A stretch of DNA of 56,327 nt from a virus, in IMG/VR virus record IMGVR_UViG_3300030090_002290, positions 1-56,327 of that record; one strand, 5' to 3'. The notes under the pieces were generated by a model, which saw nothing but the letters and a program-made list of their open reading frames with translations, did not search any database and was not told the origin of the DNA. Every line of letters starts with the position of its first letter. Position 1 is the stretch's first letter. The position numbers were made by a program, and so were the translations under genes. Shown here in pieces: positions 1,428 through 46,630 of this stretch.

Positions 1428-1748
1428 ATGGCTAAAAAATTACAACATGATTCAATTTGGGCTAAGTATGACATCGATAACGATGGCACAGTTAGCGATG
1501 AGGAGCTTGAACGGGCTACTCAAATGATTGAATTAGATCTCAGGGAAGAGAAACAGGACAGTCAGCGACGGATTGCTTGGGTGGCGATGTCTTCTATGGT
1601 CGCATACTCTTTACTTCCTCTTATGCCTTTTGTACCAGAGGCTAGGCTGGATACCCTTTCCTCACTGAGTGACATCTTGTTTTTGAGCCAGGCCAGTATT
1701 ATAGGTTTGTATTTCGGCGCAACGGCTTATATGTCACGTAAACCCTAG
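1428..1748 (+). CDS. EF-hand membrane protein
   Basis: A 106-residue protein with a textbook EF-hand loop at residues 15-26 (D15-I-D17-N-D19-G20-T-V-S23-D-E-E26), which should bind calcium. After a charged helix come two hydrophobic segments at about 50-66 and 80-98, likely transmembrane. The layout is a cytoplasmic calcium-binding head on a small membrane hairpin, similar in size to a holin. The sequence does not settle whether it is a pore former, a calcium sensor for lysis or something else. Confidence 0.65.
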   Translation: MAKKLQHDSIWAKYDIDNDGTVSDEELERATQMIELDLREEKQDSQRRIAWVAMSSMVAYSLLPLMPFVPEARLDTLSSLSDILFLSQASIIGLYFGATAYMSRKP

Positions 1749-6479: not shown

Positions 6480-7160
6480 GTGGCCTCCTACGAGTCCTTA
6501 CTTTCTGAAATTATTCCAGTAGTACCGGGCTGTACTGATACTCTTATTGAACAGAATATTCGTGCGGCTGTTATTGAACTGTGCGAGAAAACGGAAGTTT
6601 ATCAGCAAGAGCTGGACCCTGTTTCTACAGTAAAGAATATATTTGAGTATGATTTAGAACCCCCTAGCGGTACAACAGTCCATAAAATTATATGGATGAC
6701 TTATGATGGGGAAGATTTAGAGGCGATAACAAATGCGTTGCTAGAGCAGCGTAAGCCTAAATGGAGGCAGTCTGGTTATGAAGGACGACCAGAGTACTTC
6801 GTTAAGCAGTCGCCTTCTCTTTTTTATGTAGCGCCTGTACCTAATGAAACAAAGGTAAACGGGTTGCTGTTACGGGTAGCGTTAAAACCTACTCATACGT
6901 CCAGTTCGTGTGACACTGACATAATGAACGATTATAGGGACACTATAATTAATGGCACTATCTTCAGGTTGTTAAGACTTCCAGGCAGAGAGTGGACAGA
7001 CTATGCAGGGGCACAAGTTTATGCAGCGTTGTTTGCTGAAGGGTTAAATGCCGCCGAAAAGCGCGGACGACAAACAGCATCAAGAGTAGCTAGAAAGGTG
7101 AGATACAGTGGAACAGGGCCAAGTTATAGGCTTACACGTACCAAATATTCAAAACGATGA
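6480..7160 (+). CDS. Tail tubular A-like connector protein
   Basis: A 226-residue protein starting with GTG. The start is supported by spacing after the adaptor gene and by the MASYESLLSEIIP opening, typical of gatekeeper or adaptor proteins. It has a helical N-terminus, a beta middle (with WMTYDGEDLEAIT) and a C-terminal helix ending in a basic tail. Position and length resemble T7 gp11-type proteins that form the adaptor between portal and nozzle. Its last 53 bases overlap the next gene in another frame. Confidence 0.55.
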   Translation: MASYESLLSEIIPVVPGCTDTLIEQNIRAAVIELCEKTEVYQQELDPVSTVKNIFEYDLEPPSGTTVHKIIWMTYDGEDLEAITNALLEQRKPKWRQSGYEGRPEYFVKQSPSLFYVAPVPNETKVNGLLLRVALKPTHTSSSCDTDIMNDYRDTIINGTIFRLLRLPGREWTDYAGAQVYAALFAEGLNAAEKRGRQTASRVARKVRYSGTGPSYRLTRTKYSKR

Positions 7161-7569
7161 GAAAGTTTTTGAGCCGGTTATTGGTAGCATTCGTGAAGAT
7201 TGGGATAGGGTTCGTCCTCATATTCAGTCTCTTCTGGACGACTGCCCGAACTTATCTTTCCGAGTGGAAGATGTCTATGCGGAAGTGGTTGCGGAAAAAG
7301 CCATTTATTGGAAAGCTCCTGAAGGGTTTGTTATTTCGACTACAGAAGTTAATCGATTTACTAACCAAAAGACTTTCTTTATCTGGATAGCGTGTGCCTA
7401 TAAAAGAGGCGATAGGAACATGTTGAAATATTATCCGTTTTTCCAATCGTTAGCGAAAGAGTTAGGCATGGAGGCTTTAGAAGTACAGACCTCTCATGAA
7501 GCGATTAAGCCTATTTTGTTAGGCGCAGGTTGGGAACTAGATACTGTTGTGTACAGACTCGAGGTATAG
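7108..7569 (+). CDS. GNAT-fold-like protein (T7 gp13-like)
   Basis: A 153-residue protein from a GTG behind AAAGGTGAG, overlapping the upstream gene by 53 bases. The layout (EDVYAEVVAEKAIYW, then an FFIWIACAYKRGDRN strand, a YFPFFQSLAKELG-like helix and an ILLGAGWELDTVVYRLE ending) resembles the GNAT acyltransferase fold. T7-like phages encode such a protein at this position (internal virion protein gp13). Acetyl-CoA-binding residues are not obvious, so it may be structural only. Confidence 0.5.
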   Translation: MEQGQVIGLHVPNIQNDEKVFEPVIGSIREDWDRVRPHIQSLLDDCPNLSFRVEDVYAEVVAEKAIYWKAPEGFVISTTEVNRFTNQKTFFIWIACAYKRGDRNMLKYYPFFQSLAKELGMEALEVQTSHEAIKPILLGAGWELDTVVYRLEV

Positions 7570-7571
7570 AA

Positions 7572-8126
7572 ATGGGAAGACCTAAACAACAAGACTATGA
7601 AGCAAGTGAAGAAGAAAAAGTTTCTGCTTCTGTTGCTAAAGCAAACTATGATTTCTTTAAATCAAATTACGCGCCTTTACTTAAACAGATGCGGGATCAA
7701 AGTCAGTCTGATGACAATCGATTAGCTCTTCGTGGTCGGGCGAGTGCAGATACTATGCAGGCTTTAACGTCGCAACCTACTTATATGGCTACACAAGATG
7801 TGGAAGGGGCAGGCGATATTTCTCAAGCTCTTGCAGGGCAGTTAGGGGTGGCTGATAAAGCTGCTAAAAATATACAGAACACAGCTGCTACAAATGTATT
7901 AGGCGTTGCTAGAGGCCAAGCTGCAGATGCTGCATCTGGTATGGCAAAAGCGTCGAGGCTGGCTACTAGTGATGCGTTAGCAAGAGCGCGAGGTAAACAA
8001 CAAGTTAGATCGGCTAGAACTCAAGCCTTAGGAAAGATAGCAGGCGCTGGCATAATGAAATACGGAGAAGAAACTGGGAATGAAGGCATTGGTAAATTCT
8101 TTGACGCAATGGGAGCAGTTGGTTAA
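7572..8126 (+). CDS. Internal virion protein, Ala-rich helical
   Basis: A 184-residue protein rich in Ala, Gln and small residues, predicted mostly helical. The start at 7572 follows GAGG and lies two bases after the preceding stop; a longer frame would overlap that gene. A region with DKAAKNIQNTAATNVLGVARG resembles the Ala/Gly-rich helices of ejection proteins such as T7 gp14. It is the first of four consecutive genes of rising size that fit a podovirus internal core. Confidence 0.55.
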   Translation: MGRPKQQDYEASEEEKVSASVAKANYDFFKSNYAPLLKQMRDQSQSDDNRLALRGRASADTMQALTSQPTYMATQDVEGAGDISQALAGQLGVADKAAKNIQNTAATNVLGVARGQAADAASGMAKASRLATSDALARARGKQQVRSARTQALGKIAGAGIMKYGEETGNEGIGKFFDAMGAVG

Positions 8127-8128
8127 TT

Positions 8129-8740
8129 ATGGCAAATCCAATGGCAATGCAAAGAAGACGTTCGCGTTTAGGTACAGCGGACGGACTTGAAGGGTACTAC
8201 GAAGCAGATCAGACTATTGATGGGCTACCTGTTGTTTCTGACCCCCAGAAAACATTTGCGGATTTAACCCGTAGAGAGTATCAGGATTATGTTAGGGACT
8301 ATCGTGACTTTGAATTAGATCAGATACAAAAGTCACAAACTGATACTTCTTTAATAGACGCAGCAAGAGAAGACTCTGCTATAGCAAGCCGTCTTGCGGG
8401 GGATTATGCCCAAAGAAATTTAAGTCGTTATGGCGGTCAGTTAACCCCTGCTCAACAACGCGAACAGCAAAGAGGGTTACAGCGCTCGACTACGTTAGGT
8501 TCTATACAAGCTTTAAGTGATGCTAGGATAGCGCAGCGTGAAGCAAACCAAGCCCTATTATCTGATCTTATTAATATTGGACAGGATCTAAATAGGTCTT
8601 CACAGGCTCAATTAGGTAGTGCGGCAGCAGATGCTTCTGCACGTAAACAGGCTTACGACCAAGCTAAAGCTCAATCTAAAGCTCAAACATATTCATTACT
8701 CGGAACGTTGGGTGCAGCAGCACTAATCGCGTTTGTATAG
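8129..8740 (+). CDS. Internal virion protein with C-terminal membrane-like helix
   Basis: A 203-residue protein with a basic start, a long charged helical middle (Gln, Arg, Asp, Ala-rich) and a hydrophobic C-terminus (YSLLGTLGAAALIAFV). A terminal hydrophobic helix on an ejection protein is consistent with insertion into the host envelope when DNA is delivered, as for T7 gp14. The gene lies two bases after its neighbour and nine before the next. Confidence 0.55.
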   Translation: MANPMAMQRRRSRLGTADGLEGYYEADQTIDGLPVVSDPQKTFADLTRREYQDYVRDYRDFELDQIQKSQTDTSLIDAAREDSAIASRLAGDYAQRNLSRYGGQLTPAQQREQQRGLQRSTTLGSIQALSDARIAQREANQALLSDLINIGQDLNRSSQAQLGSAAADASARKQAYDQAKAQSKAQTYSLLGTLGAAALIAFV

Positions 8741-40499: not shown

Positions 40500-40691
40500 T
40501 TATCGTTGGTTGTTTGTCGGGTCAACTTTTTGTCGTTCGGGGCGCTCAATTTTTACTTCAGTTGGCGCATCAAAGAGTAAACGTACTTGGTTCCTATCAA
40601 TACGAGCGACTGTAACTAGCACAGTTGTATCGTCATCTAATGACACAGATACCTGTTCATTAAGTTTTCTTGTTAAGACTAGCCTGCTCAT
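40500..40691 (-). CDS. csrA: CsrA-family RNA-binding protein
   Basis: A 63-residue CsrA/RsmA homologue. It begins MSRLVLTRKLNEQVSVS, with the Leu-x-Leu-x-R-K start of the family (normally MLILTRR), has a middle TVARIDRNQVRLLFDAP (normally GxxxNQVRIGVxAP) and keeps the EVKIERPE end with the key arginine that contacts GGA motifs. CsrA dimers block or protect mRNAs. In a phage it could rewire host carbon and translation control or regulate phage mRNAs. It starts directly at the polymerase stop (TAG-ATG). Confidence 0.88.
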   Translation of the reverse strand: MSRLVLTRKLNEQVSVSLDDDTTVLVTVARIDRNQVRLLFDAPTEVKIERPERQKVDPTNNQR

Positions 40692-42491: not shown

Positions 42492-42699
42492 CTTGTTCGT
42501 CCTTAGCATCCTGCTCTTGTCGGTGTGCGTACACACTTGCTTCGATCTGCTGAAAGTTTTTGACTATATCATTGTGCAGCTCGGGCATTCTACTTTTTAA
42601 CCAGACAAATGTGTACTGCAGTTTTTCGTAAGAGTTAGAATCCTGGTCAAGATGAGGTTCAATCTTGTTAGATTCTTCTAGGTATTCTTTTTTGTCCAT
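42469..42699 (-). CDS. Small helical protein before polymerase
   Basis: A 76-residue acidic helical protein. The ATG at 42699 overlaps the upstream stop as TAATG, and its last bases overlap the polymerase start. It has a QDSNSYEKLQYTFVWLKSRM helix and a C-terminal Glu/Gln/Asp-rich end. No family is recognised. Tight coupling with the polymerase suggests an accessory role. Confidence 0.55.
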   Translation of the reverse strand: MDKKEYLEESNKIEPHLDQDSNSYEKLQYTFVWLKSRMPELHNDIVKNFQQIEASVYAHRQEQDAKDEQDVNNPRF

Positions 42700-43190
42700 T
42701 AGTAATCGCTTCTCCAATAAGTGTTGTTGTAATCCGGGTCTTGTATTTCTGTTGTATCGATGTCTCCGATAGTGAAAGCTTCATCGGTACATTCTAAATC
42801 GTATGAAAATATTTCAAGCCCTCCTCCTTCTTCCCCTGTGTCTATGTAAACCAGGAGTGTATCTACACCTTGTAGCTCCCATGTTTCCACATCCTCTGGT
42901 GAATAACCTTCTGGCAAAGTGATCTTTGTTGTGGCGTAAGATGTTGCTCGATGCTCAACAATAACTTCATAGTTCCTGGATCTGTCAGTAGGTGTGCGTA
43001 TAGCAAACATCGAATGATTAGTTTGCTTTGATGGTATGAATGTTGATTCACAATCCGGGCATATTAAGAATCCATCCCGGCTGAAAAAATCTAAATCACA
43101 CTCAACAAATGTTGGACCCATATCGTAGCCGCATTCACGGCACATCCATTCAGATAGTTCTTTGACTGCTACTGTTCTACCCACATCCAC
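42699..43190 (-). CDS. Zinc-ribbon protein
   Basis: A 163-residue protein with an N-terminal zinc ribbon (MCRECGYDMGP and then FLICPDCEST: CxxC twice, about 25 residues apart), a beta-rich middle (YEVIVEHRATSYATTKITL) and an acidic C-terminus. The ATG sits very close to the AGGAGG site; a GTG two codons later has better spacing and may be the real start. It follows the conjugation cassette and membrane genes. Function unknown. Confidence 0.6.
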   Translation of the reverse strand: MDVGRTVAVKELSEWMCRECGYDMGPTFVECDLDFFSRDGFLICPDCESTFIPSKQTNHSMFAIRTPTDRSRNYEVIVEHRATSYATTKITLPEGYSPEDVETWELQGVDTLLVYIDTGEEGGGLEIFSYDLECTDEAFTIGDIDTTEIQDPDYNNTYWRSDY

Positions 43191-43453
43191 CTCCTATATG
43201 GAAACTTTTTGATTTTAACTAGCTCAAGTTTTTGATGTCGCATCGTACGTTTCATAATGAACAGTACAATGGACACGATTAATCCGCCGAATAATGCAGC
43301 CATCATGCCGCTGAATGTACCTGCTAGTGCAAGCATTAGTAGTACAGTAATAACTACATCAAAGAATATGTCGTAGGTTATTACTTTGCGTACGCCGAAC
43401 TTGAACAACAGGAACAACATTCCTGCTGCTGCAACAAGGCCTGCTGTCATCAT
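43169..43453 (-). CDS. Small multi-pass membrane protein
   Basis: A 94-residue protein with three hydrophobic segments: AGLVAAAGMLFLLFKFG, then FFDVVITVLLMLALAGTFSG and MAALFGGLIVSIVLFIM, and a basic C-terminus. It starts behind AGGAGG and its ATG overlaps the stop of a 45-residue frame upstream (ATGA). It could be a holin-like or membrane-remodelling protein. No family is named. Confidence 0.6.
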   Translation of the reverse strand: MMTAGLVAAAGMLFLLFKFGVRKVITYDIFFDVVITVLLMLALAGTFSGMMAALFGGLIVSIVLFIMKRTMRHQKLELVKIKKFPYRRWMWVEQ

Positions 43454-43587
43454 GGTTTATCCTCCTCTTCAATTTGGGTTAGTATTTTTTCCATCTTCTC
43501 TAACAGATTCTGGATGTTTGTGAAGATCTCCAGGTATGTGTTGATCTCCTCCTCGTCCAGAGTCAGTTTCAGTTCTAACTGTTTCAT
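43450..43587 (-). CDS. 45-residue leucine-rich coiled-coil mini-protein
   Basis: A short frame with GAGGA at a good distance and an ATGA overlap with the membrane gene downstream. The product is a Leu/Glu/Lys heptad helix (MKQLELKLTLDEEEIN, then NIQNLLEKMEKILTQI). It overlaps the larger 43469 frame in another phase, so one frame may be spurious; codon heptads and coupling favour this one. Confidence 0.55.
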   Translation of the reverse strand: MKQLELKLTLDEEEINTYLEIFTNIQNLLEKMEKILTQIEEEDKP

Positions 43588-43657
43588 CTTTAACTTCCTC
43601 AATTATTCTTCGTATAGTCAAAAAGGTGACTATGAATTCAACTAGTTTCATGAACAT
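43469..43657 (-). CDS. Small protein with N-terminal membrane segment
   Basis: A 62-residue frame, ATG behind AGGTTAATT two bases after the E2-like gene. It opens with a hydrophobic helix (MFMKLVEFIVTFLTIRRI) and continues into a charged, low-complexity tail with poor protein character where the 45-residue coiled-coil frame runs in another phase. It may really be a short membrane peptide. Confidence is modest. Confidence 0.4.
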   Translation of the reverse strand: MFMKLVEFIVTFLTIRRIIEEVKDETVRTETDSGRGGDQHIPGDLHKHPESVREDGKNTNPN

Positions 43658-43659
43658 AA

Positions 43660-44610
43660 TTAACCTGCTGCTTGTTGTGGTTCAGCCCAACTCTCTTCGT
43701 TACGATCTTTGTCGTACCATCGAAACCAGTAATAGCCTGCGCCATCTTGAGAATCGACTTGCTTGAGGAACAACTCAAAGATCGTAACTGCTGTTGGTAT
43801 ATCAAAGTCTGTTATAGCTTCGATTACCGGGCCTTCGAAATCACCAAGACAAGGTACAGTCATACTAGTTTGATGAGGATGTAGTTGACCTCGTGATACA
43901 TAACCTGCCACGCGGTCTGCACTGTCTACGGCACGAAACCTAATTACTATAGATCCGCTTGCGTACCGTGTCATATCGATGTACATCGCAGGTATGTTGA
44001 TGAATACTTCTTCACCGTACTCATCAACAGGGTATCGTTCTTCATCGATGTTGTTTACTCGTGCACGAGTTGGTTTGGTTTTGATAGAGAACTTGTATCT
44101 GTTGCCACCCTGGTCAGGGAACTCTCTGACTTTTAGGCTGTTAGATACATACAGCTCACTGTTACGCATTTGATGATCCCAGACGTCAGTAGCATAGATA
44201 GTAGATTCGTTGGCTTTTGCTCGGAGCCGTTCAAGATTCTTTTTAACAAAGAATAATTGTTGTTTGTATTTTGCTTGTTCGTTTTCTATCGAGCTTATGC
44301 GTCTGATTGTATCTGCTAGATCATCTGAGACGTTATGAACATTACGTTCTAAACAGGCTTCTAATGATTCAGCAAGCTCTGCGTTTCCGCCTGCTATTTG
44401 TAATAGCTGCCAACGTAAACGATTGTTAGTTTGGAAAGTTTGAGCTGCAATAATCTCCCTGTTTAGCTGCCGTCTTTGTATACGTTCAAAACGTACATTG
44501 TTGTGCAGTCTTGTATAAGATCGTTGCGCTGCTTTAAGTTTTTCTTCTTCAGTAGTTATCAAAGAAGCATTGGGAAAAATCTCAAAAGTTTTTACTAGTC
44601 TGCCAGCCAT
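43660..44610 (-). CDS. Coiled-coil protein with E2-like (UBC) C-terminal domain
   Basis: A 316-residue protein. Residues about 15-135 are long helices (coiled coil). Residues about 190-300 are beta strands (EVFINIPAMYIDMTR, then GSIVIRFRAVDS) leading into H244-P-H246, seven residues, C254-L-G, and then two helices (AVTIFELFLKQV). HPx-x7-C matches the spacing around the active cysteine in E2 ubiquitin-conjugating enzymes, and order and strands fit the UBC fold. It starts in the stop of the JAB gene (TAATG). I infer a conjugating enzyme for the cassette; it could also be an inactive adaptor. Confidence 0.5.
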   Translation of the reverse strand: MAGRLVKTFEIFPNASLITTEEEKLKAAQRSYTRLHNNVRFERIQRRQLNREIIAAQTFQTNNRLRWQLLQIAGGNAELAESLEACLERNVHNVSDDLADTIRRISSIENEQAKYKQQLFFVKKNLERLRAKANESTIYATDVWDHQMRNSELYVSNSLKVREFPDQGGNRYKFSIKTKPTRARVNNIDEERYPVDEYGEEVFINIPAMYIDMTRYASGSIVIRFRAVDSADRVAGYVSRGQLHPHQTSMTVPCLGDFEGPVIEAITDFDIPTAVTIFELFLKQVDSQDGAGYYWFRWYDKDRNEESWAEPQQAAG

Positions 44611-45512
44611 TATCTAAAACCCCCTTTGTTTTCTAAATGGTGTTGTCTGTTGTACTCCTCTTCGAAGAGTGTTCTTTCTTCAGTGTCCATCTCATCTATC
44701 TCAGTTTGAGTTATCTCAATGACATCTCCTGTTGCAGGGTTTCTGAAGATCAGATCCTCTTCATCTGCTGCGCCCCAGTAGCTGCTGTAATAATCTGAAG
44801 TATCTATGAGAGTTGAACCAGGAGTATTCTGATTGTTGAACGTCATGTTTACTTGCTGGTTTAGTGCAGGCTTTTTTACAGTAGAGAAAGATGCTTTCTT
44901 TACGTTGGCCTTTACCAGTTTGTCTATGCGTTTGCGTAGTTCTTTATTTACCGGAGCAGGCATAGGTCCGTTCCATACACACTGATGAGAGCAGTTGTTA
45001 TCTACGTCATATACATCAACCTTGGAATGTCCTTGCTTGTTGTATATGCCACGGATAAATAACTTACAGCCATTGTCCAGGAACTCTTCTACTTGCATTT
45101 CGTCCTGGGCCGAGGGGCTAACGCTCATGTTTACATGTGAGTGTCCCCAATAGATTAGCTTCTCTGATTCTTTACCTGATTCTTCCAGCTCAACAGCTAG
45201 ATCACATAAAGTTTCAGCAGCTATATCGGTCTCTGCTCCATGTACCTTTTGCTTAGGTATGTAGATGTTAGTGATAGTAAAGGAAGTAATTACTCCTTTG
45301 TCGTTTGTTTCAGTCTCAACCAGACCGAGCCAACCAACTTCTGTAGATACAGAATCTACAAGGTATCGAATAGTTTCCCAGGCACTGTCTGTGTAAAACA
45401 CTTTCGGTGCTTCCGGGTATTGGTATTCGAACAGTTGCTCAGTCTCAGGAGAGTCTGAAGTTGTATCAAAGCTAGCGCGTTTGGAAGCTTTGTATTGAGT
45501 ATAAGAAATCAT
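44610..45512 (-). CDS. JAMM/JAB-domain isopeptidase
   Basis: A 300-residue protein. The JAB1/MPN metalloprotease core has E58 (STEVGWLG) and H124-S-H126, seven residues, S134-x-x-D137. This is the exact HxH-x7-S-x2-D zinc motif of deubiquitinases such as RPN11. Residues 38-175 form the domain; the rest is a linker and an acidic tail ending at 300. It would cut an isopeptide bond or trim the Ubl C-terminus. The ATG overlaps the E1 stop (ATGA) and its own stop overlaps the E2-like ATG, so all three are coupled. Confidence 0.88.
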   Translation of the reverse strand: MISYTQYKASKRASFDTTSDSPETEQLFEYQYPEAPKVFYTDSAWETIRYLVDSVSTEVGWLGLVETETNDKGVITSFTITNIYIPKQKVHGAETDIAAETLCDLAVELEESGKESEKLIYWGHSHVNMSVSPSAQDEMQVEEFLDNGCKLFIRGIYNKQGHSKVDVYDVDNNCSHQCVWNGPMPAPVNKELRKRIDKLVKANVKKASFSTVKKPALNQQVNMTFNNQNTPGSTLIDTSDYYSSYWGAADEEDLIFRNPATGDVIEITQTEIDEMDTEERTLFEEEYNRQHHLENKGGFR

Positions 45513-46201
45513 ATGTTGTCCTTAGTCGAAAACATCATAGGTTTAAAGAACACATCCAGTTGAGCTGTGGCACACCCGTCATCCAATAGGAAGTTCATGA
45601 ACTCCCATACTGCTAGGTTTGCAATGAGCGATGCGGTAGGGCCAACTGATATGCTGGTTCCACATGGAGACATTTCCCCTTCGTCATCGCTGATTAGTGA
45701 GTCGTACCACCGTTGTAACTGAACGCTGTTTGTAGGTGAGAAGTGATATACGTTACCGTGCGTCGATGCCATGCGAGTCTCAAAGATTTGAAACAGCTCA
45801 CTGTTTGGTCCTTTGTCCTGTGCATCTACAATCTGACGGCGTGATGCCATTGTGTCAGTCAGCAGGAAAAGGAAGCCATTGAACTTGCGTTGATCTATAC
45901 GCTCGTTGACGAACTGCATTGGCAGCTGGTCTTCGGCTATGCCTAGTTTCATAGAAGCCAAACTCTTGAGAGCTTGAACTTTAGGCACACCGATATGCTC
46001 ATGCATGTATGCCTGGTTAGCTAGGTTGTGTGCTTCTACTTTGTCGTAGTCATACACGCTGATGTTAGTCAGACCTAGCTCGATAAGCGACATGAACACT
46101 CGTGACCCAGTTGCACCTGCGCCAACGATATGTATTGGGTAGTTGCTGTACTCCCCAGCACGGAATACGGAATCGTGTCGAATGGTCGAGAGTAAAGTCA
46201 T
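45509..46201 (-). CDS. ThiF/E1-like adenylating enzyme
   Basis: A 230-residue E1-like enzyme. It has the nucleotide loop IVGAGATGS (G27-x-G29-x-x-G32), YDYDKVEAHNLANQ (D51, D53, N59, Q63: the ATP and magnesium-binding pattern) and K74, then LLTDTMASRR (Asp and Arg). One Cys lies in SPCGTS near the C-terminus and could take a thioester. The start ATG at 46201 follows GGAGG with ideal spacing. An in-frame extension upstream to a TTG at 46360 stays open for 53 codons and contains CPDC, so a longer form is possible but less likely. Confidence 0.85.
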   Translation of the reverse strand: MTLLSTIRHDSVFRAGEYSNYPIHIVGAGATGSRVFMSLIELGLTNISVYDYDKVEAHNLANQAYMHEHIGVPKVQALKSLASMKLGIAEDQLPMQFVNERIDQRKFNGFLFLLTDTMASRRQIVDAQDKGPNSELFQIFETRMASTHGNVYHFSPTNSVQLQRWYDSLISDDEGEMSPCGTSISVGPTASLIANLAVWEFMNFLLDDGCATAQLDVFFKPMMFSTKDNI

Positions 46202-46343
46202 ATAACCTCCGTTTGTTATTGGGTTGAAAAACAAACCTTCCCCGCACAGAAGAAAGAAAGATTGGATTCCCTGTACTACAGTTGATAGGAGTCTAGGCCT
46301 GCAGTCAGGGCAGTCTAACTTCTGTACGAAGAAGGCTTGACCT

Positions 46344-46392
46344 CCCCATGCACCTTGCAAAAGAGGGAGATGAATACCTCTTGTGCATGGGG
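46344..46392 (-). other. Long bipartite hairpin between Ubl and E1 genes
   Basis: CCCCATGCAC (46344-46353) pairs perfectly with GTGCATGGGG (46383-46392), and an inner AAGAGG (46361-46366) pairs with CCTCTT (46377-46382), leaving a seven-base bulge. Sixteen pairs in a gene-free 213-bp gap between the Ubl stop and E1 start point to an RNA element: processing site, attenuator or protein-binding hairpin. No T-run follows. Confidence 0.6.
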
Positions 46393-46414
46393 AAGGAGAC
46401 GGTACGGTCAGGTC

Positions 46415-46630
46415 TTAGTTACCCTTGGCACCTTGCGAGATAACTACTCGGTCTCCATCAGTCAGGGTATAACCCTGGTCAACGGTTTCAGCGCCGACTT
46501 TGATGGCTTCCGAACCAGTTGGCTCGATGCTTGCTGCACTAAGTGCATCAGCAACCGTAGCCCCCGCAGACAGAGCAACCTCTGTCACCGCACCTGGGAT
46601 GCGGATTACTTTGACGAATATTTCGTCCAT
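46415..46630 (-). CDS. Ubiquitin-like (ThiS/MoaD-type) small protein
   Basis: A 71-residue beta-grasp protein. The start at 46630 follows AGGAGG at seven bases; an upstream in-frame start would run into a hairpin. The pattern (FVKVIRIPGAVTEVALSAGATVADALSAA, quoted in part, then IKVGAETVDQGYTLTDGDRVVIS) is that of ThiS/MoaD-like ubiquitin relatives: GaTVadAL and a late GDRV strand. It ends in GAKGN rather than a bare GG, so it may need trimming, perhaps by the JAB protein, to expose a C-terminal glycine for activation by the downstream E1. Confidence 0.72.
   Translation of the reverse strand: MDEIFVKVIRIPGAVTEVALSAGATVADALSAASIEPTGSEAIKVGAETVDQGYTLTDGDRVVISQGAKGN

Follow-up and report, generated by a model that had tools for sequence, protein, structure and literature searches.

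A phage-borne four-gene cassette with a divergent E2 family, predicted to encode a complete pathway of ubiquitin-like conjugation

An IMG/VR virus record of 56,327 bases (IMGVR_UViG_3300030090_002290; this whole stretch is referred to as the window) carries on its minus strand, at positions 46630-43660, genes for a ubiquitin-like protein (Ubl), a ThiF-type activating enzyme (E1), a JAMM/JAB protease and a coiled-coil protein resembling a conjugating enzyme (E2). Very probably, these four genes form a complete, self-contained pathway of Ubl conjugation and deconjugation borne by a tailed phage. A compact tagging and untagging system had been proposed in an earlier reading of the sequence (the original prediction). 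That proposal is now supported by conserved motifs, a UBC-like fold model, a conserved glycine in the Ubl and the linkage of the four genes, from which the chemistry is inferred. The following features were assigned:

46415-46630, minus strand: Ubl, 71 amino acids, putative beta-grasp modifier precursor (SAMP2 profile match; Gly70 invariant)
46421-46423, minus strand: codon of Gly70, after which the precursor is predicted to be cut (K69-G70, then N71 to be trimmed)
45509-46201, minus strand: E1, 230 amino acids, minimal ThiF/UBA5-like activating enzyme (ThiF 6.9e-20, UBA5 6e-19)
45662-45664, minus strand: codon of E1 Cys180, the predicted thioester cysteine (invariant)
44610-45512, minus strand: JAMM/JAB protease, 300 amino acids (E58, H124-S-H126-x7-S134-x2-D137)
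43660-44610, minus strand: E2-like conjugating protein, 316 amino acids, coiled-coil hairpin plus UBC-like domain
43663-44211, minus strand: UBC-like domain, residues 134-316 (H244-P-H246-x7-C254; Cys254 codon at 43849-43851)
44212-44574, minus strand: coiled-coil hairpin at the N-terminus of the E2-like protein (residues 13-133; diverges quickly)

All four open reading frames (ORFs) were found where the original prediction had placed them, in one coupled operon in which start and stop codons of the last three genes overlap (ATGA between the E1 and JAMM genes, TAATG between the JAMM and E2 genes). The next gene downstream starts 2 nucleotides past the E2 stop codon. The Ubl gene has the ribosome-binding site AGGAGGTG, and GGAGG is present upstream of the E1 start codon, ATG at 46201; the gap between these two genes is about 216 nucleotides. 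A longer E1 starting with TTG at 46360 (283 amino acids) was rejected because relatives begin at an ATG equivalent to that at 46201.

To collect relatives, IMG/VR was scanned with individual proteins as well as alignments, and bacterial genomes were scanned once. This yielded about 40 distinct contigs; some contigs are near-identical, e.g. L001-L003. Collections were scanned with JAB alignments rather than with the E2 alignment, whose 23 sequences are too diverse for that purpose. Profiles of all four proteins detected the full set in 38 of 48 records (some of them near-duplicates), and thus the same four genes do recur in the neighbourhoods of other phages, where the original prediction had advised looking for them. 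The other ten records are either cut by a contig end or represent cultured-phage or gut forms with a Ubl or E2 too distant for the profiles. The E2-like protein with its HPH..C motif is kept in nearly every cassette not ended by a contig edge. Five gene orders were observed: (i) Ubl-E1-JAB-E2; (ii) E1-JAB-E2-Ubl; (iii) Ubl-E2-JAB-E1; (iv) E2-JAB-E1-Ubl; (v) E2-Ubl-JAB-E1. The linkage is therefore not mere inherited synteny. Across nearly all loci of the widest neighbourhood comparison, the Ubl, E1, JAMM and E2 families alone recurred; the next most recurrent neighbour, leaving aside antisense ORFs shadowing cassette genes, was DNA polymerase (13 of 29 loci). The pairwise distance matrices computed for Ubl, E1, JAMM and E2 are concordant (Mantel r 0.59-0.90, p 0.001, 22 loci), which shared phage ancestry alone can explain. 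A DNA-level search among cultured phages gave no match, and the plasmid collection contained one distant ThiF match and no JAB match. Contigs L064, L065 and L067, which derive from metagenome-assembled genomes, have the order E2-JAB-E1-Ubl and neighbours that, judged by eye from sequence, resemble TrmD, GspE and TrmB. Since some bacterial-looking contigs carry the set, it is probably not confined to phages.

The E2-like protein was not recognised by Pfam, NCBIfam, PHROGs or PADLOC. Its active-site stretch reads HPH-QTSMTVP-C254-LG, and the spacing that had first suggested an E2 (HPH, seven residues, C-L-G) is that of H-P-N-x7-C-L in UBC9. The pattern HP[HN]-x7-C-[LFWYM] arose by chance in one of 20,000 shuffles of the protein. 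When the window protein was aligned with 22 relatives, whose identity to it goes down to about 17-18%, HPH and the Cys were invariant in all 23 sequences; several relatives with only about 17-25% identity still keep Cys254 and His244/His246, the residues whose conservation had been named as decisive. Nine columns are invariant in total (H, P, H, C, G, F, D, A, G). In distant members the loop often reads xPH[IVL]xxxGxxC[LFWM]G, including the Gly of the eukaryotic signature. HPH..C was also aligned, weakly, on HPN..C in a profile comparison with E2 sequences. When the full E2 alignment was used to search the PDB by sequence profile, the chains retrieved were mostly coiled-coil or helical, and none was an E2.

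Structure prediction agreed with the UBC-like fold that the original prediction had expected of the C-terminal half. The full-length AlphaFold2 (AF2) model comprises a coiled-coil hairpin (residues 13-133) and a C-terminal alpha/beta domain. Because the coil dominates this model in fold searches, the C-terminal domain was modelled alone (AF2, alignment with 22 relatives), with a predicted local distance difference test score (pLDDT) of 91.9 and a predicted template modelling score (pTM) of 0.86. The model has a helix, a sheet, a long loop with HPH..C, and further helices. In VIA-align, the best rows (Z 4.4-6.4) were nearly all UBC, UEV or RWD chains, plainly so in 11 of the top 12, and other folds began at about Z 4. 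Ranked first was 6gvw_C (Z 6.4), which belongs to the BRCA1-A complex as a subunit; scores were 6.2 for Rad6 (root-mean-square deviation 4.0, 125 residues), 5.6 for UBE2F, 5.4 for UBC9 (120 residues), 5.4 for Cdc34 and 4.7 for the UEV domain of TSG101. Ten uncharacterised viral proteins in BFVD share the predicted fold with a Foldseek probability of at least 0.97, one of them being 420 amino acids long like the E2-like protein of Flavobacterium phage Fpv3. With a modelled UBC fold and a Cys at UBC spacing after H-P-x, the protein is assigned to the E2/UBC superfamily. Cys254 is predicted to form a thioester with the Ubl and transfer it.

Between the window and contig L001, identity is 97% for Ubl, 90% for E1, 75% for JAMM, 68% for the E2 domain and 28% for the coil. 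The coil is possibly an arm that binds targets or partners. Its divergence would fit recognition of changing targets; coiled coils, however, also drift quickly. Some E2-like proteins additionally contain Cys-rich CxxC clusters (L053, 6940-8703; L062, 4098-5885; L018, 2247-4925; L074, 4839-5960), and these fused clusters might be built-in E3-like modules. In L066 two E2 domains occur in one protein, and L074 has two adjacent E2 genes.

The fourth protein might alternatively be an inactive UEV- or RWD-like scaffold, in which case the cassette would only adenylate and trim the Ubl, perhaps as a decoy sequestering host E1 or E2 enzymes of the Bil, Bub or CBASS defences. In VIA-align the scores of UEV and RWD folds come close to those of active E2s, the Asn of the HPN motif is His here, and phages are known to oppose defences that use Ubls. 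However, a mere scaffold would not need the His-Pro-His and Cys that are invariant throughout the alignment, and the cassette brings its own E1 and JAMM. We regard this explanation as unlikely.

The 71-residue protein, originally described as ThiS/MoaD-like, matched the archaeal SAMP2 profile best (E 4.6e-6), followed more weakly by MoaD, RnfH and ThiS. It ends in QGAKGN. Gly70, the C-terminal glycine whose conservation had been at issue, is the sole invariant column among 21 relatives, and Lys69 is nearly so. The residues after K-G vary in both identity and number (N, NG, NA, NR, NC, A, NCPLHLSRD), as would be expected if a trimming step is needed; the variants include an extension of over 20 residues rich in Lys, Pro and Ala. 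L071 and L074 each have two Ubl domains, arranged head to tail and joined at K-G-N. By beta-grasp similarity and the conserved C-terminal Gly, the protein qualifies as a putative Ubl modifier. The fixed Gly, the variable tail and the tandem units at the same motif suggest a precursor with a cleavable tail, predicted to be cut after the Gly, and the JAMM protein is the natural candidate for trimming it. Polyubiquitin-like precursors with two or three Ubl domains per ORF were seen in L071 (7848-8294), L074 (7536-8009), L067 (9433-10434) and L068 (10078-10815); several of them have K-G or Q-G, and then N or A, at the domain junction or at the end. Extra Ubl-like ORFs, some without the K-G tail, are present upstream of the main Ubl in L013 (6996-7211), L044 (3286-3504 and 3516-3770) and L043 (4545-4934).

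In the JAMM protein the motif HSH-VNMSVSP-SAQD is intact, as first noticed, and H124, H126, S134 and D137 are invariant in 16 sequences. Profiles matched CSN5 (1.6e-5), JAMM1 of P. furiosus (2.5e-5) and Rpn11; the Pfam Prok-JAB model remained below its cut-off. With E ... HxH-x7-SxxD the protein is classed as a predicted metalloprotease of the JAMM/MPN+ type, which would process the Ubl precursor and also detach the tag from targets.

The E1 is the only cassette protein above Pfam cut-offs, being recognised by ThiF. Its motifs are GAGATGS, DYDKVEAHNLANQ and TDTMASRR. Among solved structures human UBA5 was the best profile match; BubCD (7e-11, distant) and Cap2 were also found. The GxG glycines (G27, G29), D51, D53, K74, D116 and Cys180 are invariant in 19 sequences, placing the protein, on sequence criteria, in the E1 superfamily (MoeB/ThiF/UBA) with its Rossmann adenylation domain. 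The enzyme is minimal and contains no separate Cys or ubiquitin-fold domain. UBA5 is a small E1 which forms a thioester via the catalytic Cys250 in its crossover loop (PMC12355090), and C180, conserved in the corresponding region, is by position its presumed equivalent. The original designation as an E1/ThiF enzyme thus stands with respect to the nucleotide-binding motif and the ThiF match, and needs correction in that the Arg of canonical NLxRQ is missing family-wide.

These three proteins could also be read as a sulfur-carrier set (ThiS/MoaD-like protein, ThiF and JAMM) whose product would be a thiocarboxylate used in making a cofactor or modifying tRNA; the fourth protein would then be an accessory scaffold. 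The E1 indeed matches ThiF profiles, the Ubl matches ThiS weakly, and pairs of JAMM and ThiS/MoaD proteins are known from sulfur assimilation operons (PMC1779556). However, ThiG, MoaE or rhodanese were not noticed among the shared neighbourhood genes, for which no dedicated profile search was made, and such a set does not account for the near-universal retention of the HPH..C protein. Conjugation is the better fit for tandem Ubls and extended tails. It is also the role of the nearest solved relatives, SAMP2 and UBA5, although SAMP2 serves sulfur transfer as well. On balance, a sulfur-carrier function appears quite improbable.

The window also encodes a terminase, portal, major head protein, DNA polymerase, primase, helicase and exonuclease. 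The cassette, flanked by small ORFs and the DNA polymerase gene, is located in the replication region, adjoining DNA polymerase and primase/helicase with the exonuclease nearby, and the head and virion genes are on the opposite strand. That the cassette is a Ubl/JAB pair for tail assembly like lambda TAPI/TAPK, where a phage Ubl is known to occur with a JAB peptidase (PMC1779556), is extremely improbable given this position outside a tail gene cluster, the strand, the lack of a Pfam NlpC/P60 match in the JAB protein and the presence of E1 and E2.

Several points weigh against a complete conjugation pathway. The enzyme activities of the cassette proteins are predicted only, and neither an E3 nor a target was identified. 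Foldseek gave no match to the E2 domain in the PDB at E<=0.001, and VIA-align Z scores of 5-6 are modest, so that the E2 assignment leans on the coincidence of fold ranking and motif. All 23 E2 sequences have His in place of the catalytic Asn of canonical eukaryotic-type HPN, and UQ_con of Pfam was not matched. In all 19 E1 sequences Asn or Gly replaces the Arg of NLxRQ, and the E1 has no separate E2-recruiting domain. Finally, the Ubl ends in K-G rather than G-G.

For the conjugation pathway that we nevertheless favour, the following chemical steps, in this order, are proposed. JAMM would cut the Ubl precursor after K69-G70. The minimal dimeric E1 would adenylate the exposed Gly and take the Ubl onto Cys180, from where it would pass to the E2-like protein, at Cys254 in the UBC-like active-site loop (HPH-x7-C). 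The E2 would then transfer the Ubl to amines of target proteins, either without a separate E3 or, in some relatives, aided by the fused Cys clusters; its coiled-coil arm possibly picks the targets. JAMM could later remove the tag. As to function, we tentatively consider it most likely that the cassette marks host proteins early in infection and thereby disables or redirects them, because of its position in the replication region and because the coil is its least conserved part. Phage replication proteins would be the next best, though a rather doubtful, guess as targets.

The cassette is a phage-borne form of the prokaryotic Ubl-conjugation operons with its own divergent E2 family. Bacterial operons of Ubl, E1, E2 and JAB were described by Iyer et al. 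2006 (PMC1779556) along with the phage TAPI/TAPK pair, and Bil operons in PMC11354881. Bil and Bub likewise combine Ubl, E1, E2 and JAMM in one operon, some with tandem Ubl precursors. They are bacterial, Bil being an anti-phage defence, whereas the present set is phage-borne, its Ubl ends in K-G plus a tail and its E2 belongs to a coiled-coil family unmatched by Pfam, NCBIfam and PADLOC. No Bil-named model was among the NCBIfam and PADLOC matches listed (best 25 for the E1), and the resemblance to BubCD is distant (see above). PRTRC/type 6d operons, on plasmids, likewise encode these four components as separate proteins on mobile elements. In type 6d, the E2 lacks a His upstream of the Cys (PMC1779556), whereas here HPH precedes it; the E1 scored 32 bits against a PRTRC_ThiF cut-off of 145, and the other three proteins matched no PRTRC model. 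CBASS Cap2/Cap3 uses the same E1, E2 and JAMM chemistry as predicted here and shows weak E1 similarity, but Cap2 fuses E2 and E1 and conjugates a CD-NTase, whereas the cassette has separate proteins and a true Ubl, and no CD-NTase was seen. Archaeal SAMP2 is the best match of the Ubl, and JAMM1 is among those of the JAMM protein; sampylation is not known to use an E2, whereas an E2-like protein is linked here. The UBA5/UFM1 system shares a minimal E1 without a separate Cys domain and a Ubl that is left with a single C-terminal Gly once trimmed. For UFM1 the trimming enzyme is a cysteine protease, in contrast to the predicted JAMM trimming here, and the C-terminal extension by which UBA5 binds UFM1 and UFC1 is missing from the window E1.

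Adjacent E2-like, JAMM and E1 genes were also found in the Crassvirales phages DAC15 of Bacteroides (L077, 1531-5708) and cr85_1 (L079, 1957-5672), in Flavobacterium phage Fpv3 (L019, 1616-5627), in Dulem virus 41 (L020, 2197-5627) and in the gut virus bajarodcaudo 1. In these sets the E2-like motif is HSH..CxG, a Ubl-like precursor lies upstream, and uracil-DNA glycosylase is mostly nearby; the genes are annotated only as thiamine biosynthesis, metalloprotease or hypothetical. By profile, E1 and JAMM of the crAss-like and related phages clearly belong to the window families. The crAss-like E2-like proteins reached an hhalign probability of only 39% with the window family, so this link, although helped by the BFVD structure matches, is a lead. 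We think it fairly probable that several unrelated tailed-phage lineages, including culturable crAss-like gut phages, encode a full Ubl pathway of their own, in some with polyubiquitin-like precursors and E2-zinc-cluster fusions, and tag proteins during infection, which would make it a viral tagging system directed against bacteria.

Xanthomonas jumbo phage PhiXhv-12 (L018, 1745-6497) encodes an E1 and an 892-residue E2-like protein with HPH..CLG; no JAMM was seen near these genes, and an upstream ORF ends in Gly-Gly (KASGG), as if trimming were unneeded. The related genes of Xanthomonas phages, too, bear the labels thiamine biosynthesis or hypothetical. In the gut phage cassette L017 (MT835544), a reverse-transcriptase-like gene with a YADD motif (6834-8171) lies directly 3' of the E1 gene. 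Directly 3' of the E2 gene, the window has two overlapping small ORFs in different frames (43450-43657, minus strand), a 62-residue protein with a hydrophobic start and an embedded one of 50 residues, an arrangement kept in relatives. Two further proteins, one membrane-like with 94 residues and one resembling a zinc ribbon with two CxxC motifs (weak DUF7479; 42699-43453, minus strand), come after the cassette in close relatives too. A CsrA-like regulator (Pfam CsrA 1e-11; 40500-40691, minus strand) adjoins the DNA polymerase gene and is conserved in relatives. Near the head genes, a small protein (1428-1748, plus strand) contains an EF-hand-like calcium-binding loop and hydrophobic stretches.

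In the open-access literature, as distinct from subscription papers and preprints, no description of a phage-borne four-gene cassette was found, and the tail-assembly Ubl/JAB pair was the only phage example; the main texts of two crAss-like phage papers do not mention ubiquitin. Bacterial Ubl conjugation has so far been known from defence (CBASS, Bil, Bub) and from plasmid operons. The retention of four genes in dozens of phages suggests that viruses tag proteins inside bacteria during infection. If selection indeed keeps the full cassette in many phages, bacterial viruses would use protein tagging, too. As a natural set of minimal E1, E2, JAMM and Ubl, with tandem Ubls and E2-zinc fusions, it offers a testable system and informs the question of how the ubiquitin pathway came together. 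Culturable crAss-like and Flavobacterium phages have related genes, and in them the targets could be found by proteomics.

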